A stretch of 8,051 bases of DNA from positions 1 through 8,051 of the forward strand of contig JACRGO010000131.1 of assembly GCA_016212295.1 (NCBI GenBank). Reading direction: 5' to 3'. Under the pieces are notes generated by a model. The model was given only the letters and a program-made list of their open reading frames with translations. It ran no database searches and was not told the DNA's origin. The position numbers and the translations under genes were made by a program. Below, piece by piece: positions 2,499 to 7,792 of this stretch. The stretch's first letter is position 1. Each line of letters begins with the position of its first letter. Source of the stretch: Nitrospinota bacterium. GTDB taxonomy: Bacteria; Nitrospinota; Nitrospinia; JACRGO01.

Positions 2499-2524
2499 AC
2501 CACAAAGTCACAAAGGGCACAAAG
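2499..2524. repeat. CACAAAG-type short tandem repeat
   Basis: Three near-tandem copies of CACAAAG (CCACAAAG, TCACAAAG, GGCACAAAG) at 8-9-nt spacing lie just upstream of folK. No complementary partner arm is visible, only a T-rich stretch (2525-2543). This is one of the dispersed intergenic repeat types found in many bacterial genomes. No function is claimed. Confidence 0.75.
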
Positions 2525-2561
2525 TTTTTCTCTTTTTTTTCTTGAGTTCACAGTTAACTAA

Positions 2562-2602
2562 AAATCCGCGTGAATCCGATTCATCCGCATAATCCGCGTT
2601 CC
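2562..2602. repeat. ATCCGCG-type short tandem repeat
   Basis: Four or five degenerate copies of an (A)ATCCGCNT unit lie head to tail between the dapL stop and the folK repeat array (AATCCGCG, GAATCCGAT, TCATCCGCAT, AATCCGCG). The sequence is unrelated to the neighbouring CACAAAG array. Together the two arrays fill most of the 126-nt dapL-folK gap. Confidence 0.75.
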
Positions 2603-2603
2603 A

Positions 2604-3845
2604 TTAAAATTCAAACTCCACGCTGGACAGGCGCTTCCCTATTTCCCCAAGTATCCGGCCTTCTTCCTCAACGCTGGGCGCGGAAAAGGTGGCGGAGAAC
2701 CGGACGAAATGGCCCACGTCGTCCCAGGGAACGGTGGAAATAAGTTTTTCCGTGATGAGGTACTGAGAGAATGCCTCGCCGGAATCAAACCGCTGCCCTC
2801 CCTTGATCCCCTTGGGCGCCTTCACGTACAGGTAAAAGGAACCCTTGGGCATGGTTGCCTTGAAGCCGATGCTGTTCAGGACGCTCGTGAGCTTCTCCAG
2901 ACGCCGCTTGTATTTAGCTGAAATGGCGTCCGTGATCTCCGGGTGCTCCAGGGCGTAAATCCCGGCCTTCTGGATAGCGATGAATTGGCCGGAATCGTAG
3001 TTGTCCTTCACGTTGGCGAAACCGGCCACGACGAGGGGGTTTCCAACCACGAAGGCGAGCCGCCACCCGGTCATGTTGTAGGCCTTCGACAGGGAATGTA
3101 TCTCCACCCCCACCTCCTTTGCCCCTGGAGCTGAAAGAAAGCTTAAAGGCTTGCCGTCGAAGCTAAGGGCCGCGTAGGCGGCATCCTGGACCACCACGAT
3201 CCTGTTTTCCCTGGCGAAGCGCACCACCTTTTTAAAAAACTCCACTGCGGCGGTCGCGCCAGTTGGATTGTTGGGGTAATTGATGTAGAGTAGCTTGGCC
3301 CTCTTGCGGATATCTTCGGGTATTGAGTCCAGGTCCGGCAGGAAATTATTTTCTTCCTTTAACGGAAGCTGGTGGACCTCCCCGCCGTACCATTTGGCGT
3401 GGGTGGCCAGGACCGGGTATCCTGGCACGGTCATGAGCGCCACGTCTCCTGGATTTATATAGACTGAAGACATCATGGCCAGGGCGGGTTTGGACCCGAT
3501 GGAGTGGATTACCTCGGTTTCCGGGTCTATGCCCGGCACGCTGTAGACCCTTTCCATGTACTTGGCCGCCGCCGCTTTGAATTCCGAAATTCCGTTGTCG
3601 GCGTATCCCCTGTTCTCAGGCTTCGCGGTCTCTTCCTGCATCTTGGCCACCACGCCTGGGAAGGCCATCTCGTCCGGCTCGCCAACGCCGAGGTCGAAAA
3701 GCTCCTTGCCGGGATTCGCGGCCAGGGCCGCCCGCTTGGCCCGCTTGATCTTTTCAAATTTATAAACGGTTGTGTCTTTTCCAAATTTTTCCCCGCCTAT
3801 GCGCTGGGCGAAGAGGGACTGGATATAGCTTTCCTGCTCGCTCAT
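2604..3845 (-). CDS. dapL: LL-diaminopimelate aminotransferase
   Basis: PLP-dependent class I/II aminotransferase. It converts L-2,3,4,5-tetrahydrodipicolinate directly to LL-diaminopimelate with glutamate as amino donor, a one-step bypass of DapC/D/E in lysine and peptidoglycan synthesis. The 413 residues match the usual length of about 410. The opening RIGGEKFGKDTTVYKFEKIK (15-34), LGVGEPDE (52-59) and PENRGYADNGI (76-86) match the DapL group, closest by memory to the DapL2 form of archaea and anaerobic bacteria. PLP-site features are NYPNNPTG (189-196), DAAYA (221-225), the Schiff-base lysine in SLSKAYNMTGWR (K254), and a carboxylate-binding arginine in FVRFS (R382). The start has a good ribosome-binding site (AGGAAAGGGAG, GGGAG 8 nt from ATG) and a promoter candidate. 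A different substrate within the family remains possible. Confidence 0.88.
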   Translation of the reverse strand: MSEQESYIQSLFAQRIGGEKFGKDTTVYKFEKIKRAKRAALAANPGKELFDLGVGEPDEMAFPGVVAKMQEETAKPENRGYADNGISEFKAAAAKYMERVYSVPGIDPETEVIHSIGSKPALAMMSSVYINPGDVALMTVPGYPVLATHAKWYGGEVHQLPLKEENNFLPDLDSIPEDIRKRAKLLYINYPNNPTGATAAVEFFKKVVRFARENRIVVVQDAAYAALSFDGKPLSFLSAPGAKEVGVEIHSLSKAYNMTGWRLAFVVGNPLVVAGFANVKDNYDSGQFIAIQKAGIYALEHPEITDAISAKYKRRLEKLTSVLNSIGFKATMPKGSFYLYVKAPKGIKGGQRFDSGEAFSQYLITEKLISTVPWDDVGHFVRFSATFSAPSVEEEGRILGEIGKRLSSVEFEF

Positions 3846-3882
3846 AAAAATGGCTCCCTTTCCTGTTTAAATTTGAAAAATC

Positions 3883-3911
3883 AGTATACTAAAAATAAAG
3901 CGAGATATAAA
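3883..3911 (-). promoter_or_regulatory. Candidate sigma-70-type promoter for dapL
   Basis: On the minus strand, TTTATA (3906-3911) and TATACT (3883-3888) are separated by exactly 17 bp, matching four and five of six consensus bases. Predicted transcription would start near 3876, leaving a 5' leader of about 30 nt that holds the dapL ribosome-binding site. The rest of the 220-nt gap to cbiO is AT-rich. It contains one small hairpin (3999-4014, 6-bp stem) after cbiO that is too weak to call a terminator. Confidence 0.45.
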
Positions 3912-4065
3912 CGGCCGGTGGAACTCAAATATAATGGGTGGCTAAGTCAATTTATATTCCATAATCCAGCGCCGGAAAATATCTATTTTAAAAGTGAATG
4001 GATTATTCAATCCAGAAATATGGCGACTGAGGAATAAAGGTGCTATTTGCTCGTCACTCGTTACT

Positions 4066-4848
4066 TCAGCTTAGTTGCGGCGAAGCCGCGCCATGTATAT
4101 TGAAAGTAAAAGGGACCCTCAGGCCCAAGGATTCCATGAGAGGGGCGTTTGAGAAAACATCCTCCGGCCTTCCCTCCGTTTCCACTTTCCCTTTATGCAG
4201 CAGGCACACGGAGTCGCAATATTGGGCCGCGAGTTCCACATGGTGGGTAGCCATCAATATGGTTATTCCCTTCTCTTTGTTAAGCTTCATTAAAAGGCCC
4301 ATGATTTTTTTTTCGCCCTTTGGGTCAAGGCCTTCGGTGGGTTCGTCCAGAAGAAGGATTCGCTGTCCCATGGTCAACATGCCTGCGACGCATATCCTCT
4401 TTTTTTGTCCGTAGCTTATCCGCTGAATGCCCTTTTCGGCCAGGGCCTCCATGTCCACGTCCGCCAGGGACCGCCAGGCGCGTTCCTTGACCTCTTCCGG
4501 GTTTAGGCCCAAATTGTTGGGTCCAAGGGCCACTTCTTCAAAGACCGTGGAAGAAAGGAGTTGGAGGTTGGGATCATGAAAAACCATGCCCAGCCGCTGG
4601 TACAATTCCCTGGCCGGATAATCCCTTATTTCCCTGGATTCCACCTGGATGGAGCCTCTATATTTCGGGAACAGGCCGGCCAGGGCCTTGAGGAGGGTGG
4701 TCTTCCCGCTTCCATTCATGCCGAGCAGTCCGTAAAATTTCCCCTCTGGTATTTCAATATTCACCCCGCTAAGGGCGATGGTCCCGTCAGGGTAGGCTAC
4801 CTCAAGATTTTTGGCGATCATAGTCAACGCTTTTTTAAAAAGTGCCAT
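4066..4848 (-). CDS. cbiO: Energy-coupling-factor cobalt transporter ATP-binding protein
   Basis: ABC-type ATPase on the cytoplasmic face that powers the CbiMNQO cobalt importer. Motifs from the 4848 start are Walker A GMNGSGKTT (43-51), signature ISYGQKKR (144-151; Y replaces the first G of SGGQ), Walker B ILLLDEPTEG (164-173; catalytic E169) and the H-loop MATHHVE (199-205). The usual Q-loop glutamine of VFQ(D/N)P is a histidine here (VFHDPN, H91). The true start is probably the ATG at 4821 (MIAKNLEV), because homologues begin there. The nine extra residues fall in an inverted-repeat arm, and neither start has a clear Shine-Dalgarno. The C-terminal GAASPQLS is coded by a small GC hairpin (4077-4089), so the tail may also be repeat-derived. 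It is the last gene of the operon, and no strong terminator follows. Confidence 0.93.
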   Translation of the reverse strand: MALFKKALTMIAKNLEVAYPDGTIALSGVNIEIPEGKFYGLLGMNGSGKTTLLKALAGLFPKYRGSIQVESREIRDYPARELYQRLGMVFHDPNLQLLSSTVFEEVALGPNNLGLNPEEVKERAWRSLADVDMEALAEKGIQRISYGQKKRICVAGMLTMGQRILLLDEPTEGLDPKGEKKIMGLLMKLNKEKGITILMATHHVELAAQYCDSVCLLHKGKVETEGRPEDVFSNAPLMESLGLRVPFTFNIHGAASPQLS

Positions 4849-4957
4849 GATTTTTCAGGCAAGTAAGCGGATAGTAAACGCAAAAAATAAGTAGACATGC
4901 TGAGACTCCCTAATCTTATGGAAAAAATCATAGGCGCTTTTTAAAAAAGCGTTGACT
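4821..4957. repeat. Inverted repeat overlapping the cbiO start
   Basis: The reverse complement of 4821-4856 matches 4921-4956, with 21 exact consecutive bases at the core (CTTTTTAAAAAAGCGTTGAC plus T) and further similarity through TCAT and GAAAAA. The left arm covers the cbiO start codon at 4848 and the alternative start at 4821. In the mRNA the upstream arm could pair with the initiation region. The core is also self-complementary (CGCTTTTT/AAAAAGCG). Confidence 0.8.
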
Positions 4958-5010
4958 CTCCAGCCGAATGCGATAGAGGCTCATGTCTGCTTATTTCTGG
5001 CGTTTACTAT
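4871..5010. repeat. 29-bp inverted repeat, possible MITE-like element
   Basis: Arms 4871-4899 and 4982-5010 are complementary at 26 of 29 positions. They begin with ATAGTAAACGC and end with AGACATG, enclosing 140 bp between cbiQ and cbiO. The layout (short element, terminal inverted repeats, no ORF) resembles a miniature inverted-repeat element, but no clear target-site duplication is visible. One arm of the neighbouring 4821-4957 repeat lies inside it and the other outside, so the two sets are interleaved and not nested. Confidence 0.75.
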
Positions 5011-5020
5011 AAGCTTATCC

Positions 5021-5737
5021 TCAAATCCTCCCGTCCAGAGTCCAAAGAATCCCCAGCAAAGAGGAGGAATAAAGGGCAAAGAGGCAGTCCCTGAAACCTG
5101 GAGAGGCGTGGTCCACTGAGCGGAAGGCCCCGTCGTAACACCGCAAGGCCAGCGCCTCGGCAATGGCCCCTGACTTTTCAAAGGAACGGACAACGAGGAG
5201 TCCGGCCAGGCAGCCGAGGGAGACCAGTCCCCTTTTTCCACCGGCGTAGCCCAACCGCATTTTTTGGGCGCCATGGATAGTCCTTGCGTCCTCTAAAAAA
5301 AGAAAAATAAACCTGTAGGCATGGAGAGCCACTTCGATCCACGCGGATGAGACCCGGAACCAGGCAAGCCCGTTCAGGATGGAAGGCAAGGGGGTGGTGA
5401 AGCTAAGGAAGAGCACCACTGACACCGCGCCTATGATATGGGAAGACAGCAAGGCCCCTTTTGAAAATTCGCCTTCGTATGACATGACGAGGAATAGAAC
5501 CAGGGCTATGAACAAAGGCTCCAAAAGACGGATGGAGAGGTCACGGCAGGAAACCCCTCCGGCGAGGATGGCCAAAAAACAAACCAGGGCCAGCATAAGG
5601 GAAGGGATGGGTCCGGCAAAGGACAAATTAAAGGCCAGGGCCGCCAGTGCCAGGATTATCTTCAGCCGTGGGTCTACTTCCTCTCCCCAAGGGCCGGATT
5701 TTCTTTTGTCTTTGAATAAGGATGCAATGGGGTGCAT
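5021..5737 (-). CDS. cbiQ: Energy-coupling-factor cobalt transporter transmembrane protein
   Basis: Membrane coupling subunit (EcfT/CbiQ family) that links the CbiO ATPases to CbiM. The 238-aa length is typical. Hydrophobic segments lie near 25-41, 44-61, 72-86, 98-113, 134-149 and 217-235. The two cytoplasmic coupling motifs that dock into the ATPases are recognisable as LEDARTIHGAQKMRLG (148-163) and EALALRCYDGAF (194-205, a form of the A-x-R-x-(R)G signature). The N-terminus DPRLKIILAL (22-31) is characteristic of the family. The ATG at 5737 has only a purine-poor AAAGAC upstream, so initiation may depend on coupling or be weak. It lies between the CbiN-like gene and cbiO, with repeat-filled gaps of 396 and 172 nt on either side. 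Confidence 0.92.
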   Translation of the reverse strand: MHPIASLFKDKRKSGPWGEEVDPRLKIILALAALAFNLSFAGPIPSLMLALVCFLAILAGGVSCRDLSIRLLEPLFIALVLFLVMSYEGEFSKGALLSSHIIGAVSVVLFLSFTTPLPSILNGLAWFRVSSAWIEVALHAYRFIFLFLEDARTIHGAQKMRLGYAGGKRGLVSLGCLAGLLVVRSFEKSGAIAEALALRCYDGAFRSVDHASPGFRDCLFALYSSSLLGILWTLDGRI

Positions 5738-5782
5738 TTTTTGTCTTTAGAACTTAACGCCCTTCGGGCTGATTTTAAAGAA

Positions 5783-5886
5783 TTGAACATCGAACATCCA
5801 ACGCTGAACATCGAACGTCAAAAAAGAAAGAAAAGATTTAGAACACTTCGATGTTGGACGTTCAGTGTTCAATGTTCGATGTTCAA
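5783..5886. repeat. Palindromic repeat with GAACATC 7-mer units
   Basis: Left arm 5783-5819 and right arm 5850-5886 are complementary at about 31 of 37 positions, with TTGAACATCGAACAT exact at the outer end. Each arm is a run of 7-nt units (GAACATC, GAACATC, CAACGCT, GAACATC, GAACGTC). The 30-nt centre is purine-rich. This is a widely dispersed type of bacterial intergenic repeat, often mis-annotated as small proteins with NIEH/TSNIE patterns. It sits in the 396-nt gap between cbiQ and the CbiN-like gene. Confidence 0.85.
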
Positions 5887-5970
5887 GTTTTTCCCTCTTC
5901 TATATTTAGCATCTCATTGATTTATAAGCGGAAAAAATGGAAATTCCTATACTATTAAATTACAAGCTAT

Positions 5971-6130
5971 TGGGCGAAAGGCTAAGGGCAAAAGGCGTAA
6001 GGTTAAAGGCGAAGGGTAAAAGATAAAAAATTTGTTTAATTGGTATTTTAAAACTTAAAACCTGGCAACAACTCCCTTTTTAATCTTTCATCCTTTGCCT
6101 TTAGCCCTTAGCTTACGCCTTTCTGCCTAT
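5971..6130. repeat. Palindromic repeat with AAGGC/TAAGGGC units
   Basis: Left arm (5971-6024) and right arm (about 6082-6130) are imperfect reverse complements built from 6-7-nt units such as AAAGGCG, CTAAGGGC and TAAAGGC; AAAGGCGTAAG is shared exactly. The AT-rich centre is 55-60 nt. The right arm ends a few bases from the stop codon of the CbiN-like gene. The sequence between this element and the GAACATC element (5887-5970) shows no gene. Confidence 0.8.
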
Positions 6131-6133
6131 GTT

Positions 6134-6370
6134 TTATTTTCCCTGTTTTTCGGAAAAAAGAATCCTGAAATAATATCCGATGATGAAACCAGCCGCCAGA
6201 CCCGCCAGCAAGAAAAAAAACAACGGCAGGTCCCCCTGGTCCATTGGGAGCAAGGGCTTCCATGCGCCCCTTCCAGCCTCTTCCGCGAACTTCTCCACAA
6301 CGGTCTCGTCCACGCCGGACCACTTTGGCCCTTCCACGCTCAATATTTTATTGAAATCCAAGTTTTTCAT
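6134..6370 (-). CDS. Small single-helix membrane protein, CbiN-like component of the cobalt importer
   Basis: A 78-aa protein coded exactly where cbiN sits in cbiMNQO operons. Residues 1-47 are soluble and acidic/aromatic (KILSVEGPKWSGVDETVVEK followed by FAEEAGR). Residues 48-72 form one strong membrane helix (LPLFFFLLAGLAAGFIIGYY), with a short basic tail. Canonical CbiN is about 100 aa with two helices and a PDGLE-like end, none of which is seen, so this is a positional counterpart and not a clear homologue. I recall similar 'VEGPKWSGVD' proteins beside CbiM in other anaerobes, but cannot verify that here. The likely role is to help CbiM bind or pass Co2+. AGGA 11 nt upstream, coded within a repeat unit, is the probable ribosome-binding site. 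The start lies 29 nt after the present cbiM stop. Confidence 0.75.
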   Translation of the reverse strand: MKNLDFNKILSVEGPKWSGVDETVVEKFAEEAGRGAWKPLLPMDQGDLPLFFFLLAGLAAGFIIGYYFRILFSEKQGK

Positions 6371-6380
6371 TTAGCGCTCT

Positions 6381-6441
6381 TTCCTGTCTTCCTGTCTTCC
6401 TAATCTAAGAAATTTTTATTAGGAATGCAGGAAACCAGGAG
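6381..6441. repeat. Palindromic repeat with CAGGAAGA units, overlapping the cbiM 3' end
   Basis: The reverse complement of 6381-6402 (TAGGAAGACAGGAAGACAGG) matches 6420-6441 (TAGGAATGCAGGAAACCAGG) at about 17 of 22 positions, with ATTAGGAA at the inner end of both arms. The units are 8 nt long (CAGGAANN). The element codes the last 14 or so residues of CbiM and contains its stop codon, and it also supplies the AGGA ahead of the CbiN-like gene. Confidence 0.75.
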
Positions 6442-7248
6442 AAAAAATAATCGTTTAGCCACGAATTTACACGAACATCCATGAAGTATAAACTTTTCAA
6501 AAATAATATTCGTGTTAATTCGTGGTTTCTTTGCCAAAATCTCCGGTTTCCTCTTTAAAAGAAAAGAGACCATGCCCATGGTGACAAAGCCTTCCAAAAG
6601 ACCCAAGGGAAGTTGGGTAGGGACAAAGGCCAGGGAAATGGCAGTGAATAAATCCAGGACCGGTCTGTCCCCCTGAAGGGCCAGAGCCAGTTCCAGGGAC
6701 GTGGCCGCGTATGTGGTCCAGTCAGAAAGCAAGCCCGAAACGAAAGCCGCCCCCAGGATTCCGGCGCCTAACCGGCGAAGCCCGGCGTAAGCCATCCAAG
6801 CCGTGAATGACCCAACGATTCCCATGCTCACGATGTTTCCTCCCCATGTGGTAAGGCCACCGTGGGCCAAAAAAACGGCCTGGATAAAAAGGGCGATGGA
6901 GGTGATGAATACGGACAGGACAGGACCCAATATTATAGCCGCTATAGCCACGCCGCAGGGGTGGGAGCAAGTCCCGGCAATGGGGACCGGGACCGGCATG
7001 CAGGAAACCGCGAAGACCGCGGCGCATAGCAGCCCGAGCAATGGTTTAAACTGGAAATCCTTTTTCTCTCTTTCCCTCACTTTCCTGACCCCAGCGTAAA
7101 GAAAAGGAAGGGCCAGAAGGGTCCAGGCAATGGCCCAACTCATTGGCAAAATCCCTTCTCCTATATGCATGGCATGGGCGTCTGTCGGGAAAAATGCCGG
7201 AATTATGGGAATGAGAAATAATTTTTTTTTGTAACCGTTAAACAGCAT
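6400..7248 (-). CDS. cbiM: Cobalt transporter substrate-binding membrane protein
   Basis: S-component of the ECF cobalt importer, in the cytoplasmic membrane. I prefer the ATG at 7248, which has GGA 7 nt upstream; the ATG at 7260 adds only MEIP and has no Shine-Dalgarno. Residues 1-26 form a signal peptide (KKK, then LFLIPIIPAFF, then DAHA). Cleavage would expose MHIGEG, the free N-terminal Met-His that binds the metal in CbiM/NikM proteins. The other conserved histidine is in AGTCSHPCG (H96, about residue 70 of the mature chain). Several membrane helices follow through VTMGMVSFLL. From about residue 241 (KPRINTN...) the last 42 residues do not look like CbiM and fall on two palindromic repeats. 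The cobalamin riboswitch upstream favours Co2+ over Ni2+. It is the first gene of the operon. Confidence 0.93.
   Translation of the reverse strand: MLFNGYKKKLFLIPIIPAFFPTDAHAMHIGEGILPMSWAIAWTLLALPFLYAGVRKVREREKKDFQFKPLLGLLCAAVFAVSCMPVPVPIAGTCSHPCGVAIAAIILGPVLSVFITSIALFIQAVFLAHGGLTTWGGNIVSMGIVGSFTAWMAYAGLRRLGAGILGAAFVSGLLSDWTTYAATSLELALALQGDRPVLDLFTAISLAFVPTQLPLGLLEGFVTMGMVSFLLKRKPEILAKKPRINTNIIFEKFILHGCSCKFVAKRLFFLLVSCIPNKNFLD
6459..6525. repeat. Palindromic repeat with CACGAATT units inside the cbiM 3' end
   Basis: CCACGAATTTACACGAACAT (6459-6478) and the reverse complement of 6506-6525 (CCACGAATTAACACGAATAT) agree at 18 of 20 positions around an AT-rich 27-nt centre. Read in the cbiM frame it gives KPRINTNIIF and onward, a peptide string that recurs in databases as a by-product of this repeat type. 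It is immediately followed by the unrelated CAGGAAGA element. Confidence 0.85.
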
Positions 7249-7309
7249 AGGAATTTCCATTTTAAATTTTTTAAAGCCAAATAGATAGATGAATTACACC
7301 CTCCTTGAT

Positions 7310-7394
7310 CCCCCCTTGCCAGGGGGGAATTATTGAGCTATCCCCCGCCGGGGGGCTTTGAGGTTATTCCCCCTTAAAAAAGGGGGCCAGGGGG
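7310..7394. repeat. Cluster of three C5/G5 hairpins in the cbiM leader
   Basis: Three successive C-run/G-run hairpins (7310-7327, 7342-7355, 7369-7386) are followed by another G-run (7390-7394). The pattern ATCCCCC...GGGGGAT is a common dispersed intergenic repeat, recognisable in translation as PLAPFFKGE. It lies between the riboswitch terminator and cbiM, so it is part of the read-through mRNA leader. No T-run follows on the minus strand, so it is not called a terminator. Confidence 0.8.
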
Positions 7395-7421
7395 ATGTTA
7401 ATTCTTTTGGCTACGGCGAAA

Positions 7422-7448
7422 TAGGGAACAGTTTCAAACCGTTCTCTA
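7422..7448. repeat. 27-nt palindrome in the cbiM leader
   Basis: TAGGGAACAGTTT (7422-7434) and AAACCGTTCTCTA (7436-7448) are complementary at 11 of 13 positions around one C. On the minus-strand RNA the inner part forms an 8-bp stem (GAACGGUU/AACUGUUC, one G-U pair). It lies next to the C5/G5 cluster and may belong to the same composite repeat. Confidence 0.65.
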
Positions 7449-7510
7449 CTCAGTGTTATATTTTCCATGAGTTATATTTTCAATTCGACCGAAGGGCGTT
7501 AAATTCGTGG

Positions 7511-7548
7511 AAAAAAAAATCCCGAACCTTTTTCAAGATTCGGGATTT
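7511..7548 (-). terminator. Intrinsic terminator of the cobalamin riboswitch leader
   Basis: On the minus strand a 10-bp stem (AAATCCCGAA, 7548-7539, with TTCGGGATTT, 7526-7517) closes a 12-nt loop and runs directly into nine T residues (7519-7511). It lies about 65 nt beyond the aptamer and 250 nt before cbiM. This is the expected expression platform for a transcription-terminating riboswitch: B12-bound RNA would favour this stem and stop cbiMNQO transcription. Confidence 0.88.
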
Positions 7549-7574: not shown

Positions 7575-7609
7575 AAGATTGTCCCCTATTTCGCGAGGGG
7601 TCCAATCTT
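7575..7609 (-). promoter_or_regulatory. Hairpin between aptamer and terminator (switching element candidate)
   Basis: On the minus strand AAGATTG (7609-7603) pairs with CAATCTT (7581-7575) and CCCC pairs with GGGG inside it, leaving a loop UCGCGAAAUA. This is where cobalamin riboswitches usually carry the regulatory hairpin that docks on the aptamer. I do not see an obvious loop-loop complement in the aptamer. AAGATT could instead pair with AATCTT in the terminator's 5' side (7540-7535), which would open the terminator. Confidence 0.55.
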
Positions 7610-7611
7610 AA

Positions 7612-7757
7612 ACAATAAAAGGTTTCTGGCTCACGGATCGACCTACTAACCGTCCCTTCCCGGCCTGAAAGGCCAGTGGTTCCAACGATTTTCGTCCCCG
7701 TTCACAGCGGCGGCTCCGCTCCTGATTTTAGCAGGATTCCCTTAAAAAAATTTATAA
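7612..7757 (-). promoter_or_regulatory. Cobalamin (B12) riboswitch aptamer
   Basis: Read on the minus strand, the conserved B12-box landmarks appear in order: AAGGGAATCC (from 7743), a GAAAATC-type turn as GCTAAAATCAGGAGC, a GC stem with GCTGTGAACGGGGACG, then AACCACTGGCC with TCAGGCCGGGAAGG, and finally TCCGTGAGCCAGAAACC ending at 7621. Spacing and order match the cobalamin riboswitch family, which binds adenosyl- or other cobalamins and represses B12 synthesis and cobalt uptake genes. The 5' closing stem is less clear; AUAAA near 7755 could pair with UUUAU near 7613. It precedes a hairpin, a terminator and then cbiM, so ligand binding should switch the operon off. Confidence 0.92.
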
Positions 7758-7763
7758 GATAAG

Positions 7764-7792
7764 ATTATAAACGAGATATCTTTTTTTGACAA
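7764..7792 (-). promoter_or_regulatory. Sigma-70-type promoter for the riboswitch and cbi operon
   Basis: On the minus strand TTGTCA (7792-7787, five of six consensus bases) and a perfect TATAAT (7769-7764) are separated by exactly 17 bp. Transcription would start near 7757, just at the 5' edge of the riboswitch aptamer. It is the strongest promoter match in the window. The insertion-sequence transposase stop lies 67 nt upstream, so the promoter is either native or close to the element's end. Confidence 0.75.

Follow-up and report, generated by a model that had tools for sequence, protein, structure and literature searches.

Inverted arrays of short repeat units in a Nitrospinota genome: probable gene-less members of two kinds of small mobile element

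Genes and repeats of the window

The window examined in this study (the whole 8,051-nt stretch of DNA, contig C86) belongs to a Nitrospinota genome of 3.74 Mb in 237 contigs. Its minus strand carries panB, a deoxynucleoside kinase gene, folK, genes for a class I/II aminotransferase and an ABC ATPase, cbiQ, a small Pfam-less reading frame and cbiM; a cobalamin riboswitch lies at 7600-7771. Every repeat family named in a preliminary description of this DNA was confirmed in the sequence, and far above chance, as 82 arrays of 6-9-nt units were found in 368 kb of the host genome compared to 1 in dinucleotide shuffles. The repeats had been said to fill most gaps between genes, which holds for 2478-2603, 5738-6133 and 6371-6530 only. 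They had also been described as often having two inverted arms; such arms are present in the GAACATC, AAGGC/TAAGGGC, CAGGAAGA and CACGAATT repeats but not in CACAAAG and ATCCGCG, both of which are unpaired half-arms.

Both half-arms belong to class II, in which the arm consensus is CRCRRAK with a modal spacing of 9. The plus-strand half-arm at 2499-2524 contains three CACAAAG units (2501-2524), with CRCRRAK at 2501, 2509 and 2518 (spacing 8 and 9); it lacks a complementary arm in the vicinity, and its best matches are the upstream flanks of GxxExxY genes L234 (18.5) and L214 (17.5), compared to 13.0 or less for the reversed control. The minus-strand half-arm at 2563-2598 consists of ATCCGCG units (2563-2597), read as CGCGGAT on that strand at 2564 and 2592, and matches the flanks of GxxExxY genes L212 and L182, the latter in the host genome. 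The two half-arms do not pair with each other. A complete pair of class II arms without a gene is found at 6457-6526, where inverted CACGAATT arms (6459-6478 and 6506-6525) carry CRCRRAK at 6460 (plus strand) and at 6508 and 6518 (minus strand) and match the flanks of GxxExxY genes L222, L185 and L183. Since CRCRRAK accommodates CACAAAG, CACGAAT and CGCGGAT (the complementary reading of ATCCGCG), these three window families, previously regarded as unrelated, are one.

The class I element of the window, also gene-less, has inverted GAACATC heptamer arms (5777-5822 and 5847-5892) that fold about a purine-rich centre of 24 nt, and the same unit flanks the four-helix-bundle gene L017. It is enclosed in a larger repeat of about 218 bp (5745-5962), several copies of which share 79-85% identity. 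The GAACATC elements at L171 and L179 have a hairpin built of a different unit, CATGACT, in place of their centre, and the families therefore nest. The gene-less element at 5970-6128, with inverted AAGGC/TAAGGGC arms (about 5981-6025 and 6085-6128), a period of approximately 7 nt and a G-rich first arm, is class-I-like by period and polarity, without a sequence match. Assignment to an arm class by sequence failed for TAAGGGC, for CAGGAAGA and for C5/G5. The inverted CAGGAAGA/TTCCTGTC hairpin at 6378-6442, built of 8-nt units (CAGGAAGA at 6378-6401, its partner at 6418-6442), accordingly falls in neither class by sequence. The C5/G5 hairpins at about 7310-7395, which the preliminary description counted within the shared design, behave as a separate repeat family: they occur in genome G003, which is without a match to PF05635 and whose sample is free of period-7 arrays, and they are judged to be unrelated to the array elements.

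Several further features accompany these repeats. The GAACATC repeat (5736-5962) and the C5/G5 region (7238-7520) have both end sequences in common, in inverse orientation, and one of these end sequences is the start of cbiM. The cbiM frame enters the CACGAATT and CAGGAAGA hairpins (6400-6531); its CbiM domain stops at residue 241, and past residue 243 the repeats encode approximately 43 residues, which form the end of the frame. At 4820-5013, a repeat of about 193 bp whose inverted ends are nested is one of at least five dispersed genome copies (85-89% identity), and a near-perfect palindrome with 28-nt arms and zero spacer occupies 108-163.

Arrays in the host genome and their association with two gene families

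About a fifth of the host genome was sampled, as stretches. Some of these contigs were picked for GAACATC or PF05635 matches, so host-genome densities are somewhat high; contigs of relatives were not picked in this way. Within 703 kb, counting outside long reading frames, a period of 7 was observed in 74 arrays, 8-10 in 22 and 14 in 42 (probably pairs of 7), with none of period 5 or 6, and 38 different 7-nt consensus units were present. The copy-number check proposed in the preliminary description found the families to be high-copy: GAACATCGAACRTC with at most one mismatch matched the host genome 185 times, compared to 0 for the reversed pattern. In the 703 kb, paired units also exceeded their reversed controls for CACAAAG (10 versus 0), ATCCGCG (6 versus 0) and CACGAA..CACGAA (17 versus 1), and TAAGGGC-like and CAGGA-like pairs gave no clear excess. 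Across 19 genomes of the same class, with kinship uncorrected, the density of period-7 arrays followed that of PF05635 (Spearman rho 0.82, p 2e-5); the ten of these genomes without PF05635 contained one array in about 515 kb.

The host genome contains 18 matches to PF05635 (four-helix-bundle, S23/IVS protein), and these genes are flanked on both sides by inverted short-unit arrays whose unit differs from gene to gene. To measure linkage, the two flanks of each gene were compared and their best inverted match was scored, with a threshold of at least 14; mismatched flanks from other genomes or other reading frames served as controls. In the host genome, 14 of 17 PF05635 flank pairs reached the threshold, compared to 8 of 128 control frames; of the eight, five were themselves PF05635 genes. 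The corresponding values were 21 of 27 in further relatives (1.9% of cross pairs) and, in named genomes drawn from many phyla, 45 of 80 (control, 1.5% of 6320 mismatched pairs); 4 of 59 other reading frames in these named loci scored as high. Periodic class I arms had a period of 7 in 41 of 51 cases and of 8 in nine. The arms are also polar with respect to the gene, G exceeding C in 56 of 62 upstream arms (p 3e-11) and in 16 of 22 from a second set (relatives).

All four PF13366 (GxxExxY) genes of the host genome lie between inverted arrays of 8-10-nt units; the unit at L182 is ATCCGCG, which is also a window unit, and that at L183 is CACGAA. Combining the host with other genomes, archaeal ones included, 22 of 33 loci had flank pairs scoring at least 14, compared to 0.85% in the control. 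Polarity was again evident, as CRCRRAK occurred upstream of GxxExxY 60 times in sense and 12 times in antisense, and A exceeded T in 21 of 24 upstream arms (p 3e-4). Elsewhere, arms were not detectable at between one third and one half of the PF05635 and PF13366 loci, and an in-register unit test of arm pairs gave a weak signal (10 of 49 and 9 of 21 at p <=0.05). Conserved GxxExxY residues comprise E23, D63, ExK and QxxxY, which we take to be the pattern of RecB/Cas4-like PD-(D/E)XK nucleases; a comparison with the PDB yielded no significant match. Neither protein was found in 50,697 phage records, and no transposase family matched in the elements of either kind.

Variable occupancy of spacers and the origin of the elements

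Arms and genes travel together, and whole elements are present or absent at a given site. The related copies L003 and L004 align through arms and gene, with the match fading at the arm ends. In Nostoc plasmids, the spacer that follows a TraM-like gene differs in content: it is empty in L245, L246 and L248, whereas in L239 and L244 it contains a four-helix-bundle element bounded by GGGAACA arms. It contains gene-less hairpins in L247 (with the same left junction as the GGGAACA-arm element) and in L253 (a different hairpin, of AATTCAA units). Comparison of L253 with L248 shows an apparent target duplication of 3-4 nt, a single case. At a second Nostoc spacer, the L236 element separates a stop codon from the ATG that follows, an interval of 3 nt in its relatives L249-L251. 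The content of one Geobacter spacer depends on the species: gene-less class II arrays, a four-helix-bundle gene whose arms are of AATTTTG units, or a GxxExxY gene. Class II elements between neighbouring genes were likewise found in Bacteroides and Bernardetia plasmids. A DNA search for empty sites in the relatives of the window returned no orthologous spacer, as nearly all matches were repeats, and among the loci compared no transposition step was observed and no integrase identified. The different states of one spacer in Nostoc and in Geobacter indicate that the elements are mobile and that gene-less forms exist. The preliminary description had preferred a common generating mechanism to independent mobile elements; the second part of that view is wrong, as such arrays form the termini of mobile elements. 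The shared architecture does point to a shared kind of origin, but a single mechanism for every family is not established, because the two classes differ in unit length and in their small gene.

Taken together, it is likely that most hairpins of the window are gene-less members of two tiny kinds of mobile element in which a gene is situated between inverted degenerate arrays. A complete class I element would consist of a four-helix-bundle (S23/Avd-like) gene between arms of 7(-8)-nt units, and a complete class II element of a GxxExxY gene between CRCRRAK arms of 8-10 nt; we infer that gene-bearing elements gave rise to the gene-less copies and that the latter move in trans. An explanation in which the repeats came first, the hairpins being a repeat system of their own into whose loops the small genes land as cargo, would account for the absence of the gene from most copies and for the similar surroundings of two different genes. 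However, arm polarity follows gene orientation, which would not be expected of genes dropped randomly into palindromes; in addition, the two classes of arms differ in unit and gene, related copies have arm and gene in common, and arrays are missing where genomes lack PF05635, making this explanation unlikely. Local tandem expansion by slippage with zero mobility agrees with the degenerate units and their variable number, yet inverted pairing, the fixed 7-nt period, the empty and filled sites and the dispersal of copies of one unit leave it with almost no probability.

The same small share of probability as for the repeats-first explanation goes to elements acting at the RNA level, whose arms would pair in the transcript under selection on the RNA stem, with insertions tolerated because RNase III cuts the element out. 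This route keeps some standing because the Coxiella IVS, which encodes the same protein and has terminal inverted repeats and GACAGAT heptamers, is excised by RNase III (PMC4990558), and the location of elements between co-directional neighbouring genes also fits. However, G.U and A.C mismatches in the arms numbered 129 versus 142 and 63 versus 54, and this lack of a G.U excess argues against a sense RNA stem being under selection; moreover, L238 is oriented against its neighbours. Far less probable is a Y1 transposase spreading palindromes of the REP/RAYT type. The host genome does have two Y1_Tnp genes, but L059 is without arrays, L060 has different palindromes of its own and a downstream heptamer hairpin that is not paired across the gene, and the arrays track PF05635 and PF13366. 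The search for a RAYT-like transposase or reverse transcriptase (RT) suggested in the preliminary description recovered two Y1/RAYT-type genes and one group-II-intron-like RT, none flanked by matching paired arms; with so few genes, both were rejected as drivers. The copies are numerous and are not explained by any known transposase, contrary to the outcome that the description named as refuting it.

For the mobile elements preferred here, one may guess at a DNA-hairpin route, a speculation that we favour somewhat less than its negation. The arms would extrude as a hairpin or cruciform, to be bound by the protein of the element in class I and cut by it in class II, the copy would be joined into a gap between genes, and slippage could then shift the number of units. 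The guess is based on the E, D, ExK and QxxxY residues kept by GxxExxY and on the arm mismatches without G.U excess. It is also conceivable, and slightly more so than this route, that the two classes are transposase-free mobile elements of Bacteria and Archaea with inverted degenerate arrays as ends and with mobility conferred by the four-helix-bundle or GxxExxY protein, of which rRNA intervening sequences and cyanobacterial and Xanthomonas heptamers would be class I special cases. The findings place the four-helix-bundle/S23 and GxxExxY proteins, two abundant small families to which no function is assigned, in a genomic context and give them a role that can be tested; they also join unexplained heptamer repeats and rRNA intervening sequences into one kind of element. 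Movement can be tested directly in cultured bacteria in which empty and filled sites occur naturally.

Relation to known repeats and elements

The closest system is the S23p-coding intervening sequence (IVS) of 23S rRNA, for example in Coxiella burnetii, where tandem GACAGAT heptamers upstream of the gene (5' end) vary in number by strain and RNase III cuts the IVS out (PMC4990558). The IVS and class I have the same protein family, terminal inverted repeats and upstream tandem heptamers in common, and an S23p (PF05635) frame between terminal inverted repeats is found in class I but not in class II or the gene-less window copies. The IVS resides inside 23S rRNA, whereas the array elements read here lie between protein genes and, unlike the IVS, comprise numerous unit families, copies that lack the gene and a second class whose gene is a different one. 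We rate class I as resembling an intervening sequence and class II as having no known kin.

Heptamer over-representation, inverted pairs in Xanthomonas and the Coxiella IVS heptamers are already known. In the portions of the report consulted (PMC4692102), Xanthomonas (GGGAATC) and Nostoc arrays are intergenic tandem 7-nt units, with 70-75 inverted pairs in Xanthomonas, and are described without a link to a gene or mobility, whereas the arrays in this study are linked to four-helix-bundle genes and to empty and filled sites. The STRR repeats of cyanobacteria, as far as these portions extend, are likewise intergenic tandem 7-nt units, often in inverted pairs; many such units outside genes are a property of class I only. 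A search of the open-access literature yielded no paper that connects such arrays with four-helix-bundle genes and with mobility, and no paper on GxxExxY function.

Similar to MITEs, the elements are short and dispersed, with inverted ends and apparently non-autonomous copies, but their ends are degenerate tandem units, and the arms are common to PF05635/PF13366 elements and not to a transposase-coding element. REP/REPIN sequences with RAYT are also many-copy intergenic palindromes, but the array elements differ in their tandem units, long arms and associated genes, and no Y1 gene flanked by the same palindromes was found in the host genome. The palindromes flanking the Y1/RAYT-type gene L060 surround GGATTTGCAATCC and are unlike the arrays. 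No parts of a diversity-generating retroelement (DGR RT, template and variable repeats) were seen, and the sole RT found in the host genome is, by inspection, of the group II intron type. The likeness to DGR Avd lies in the four-helix-bundle protein, and L001 matched the Avd model with an E value of 1.6e-7, which is under the cut-off of the model.
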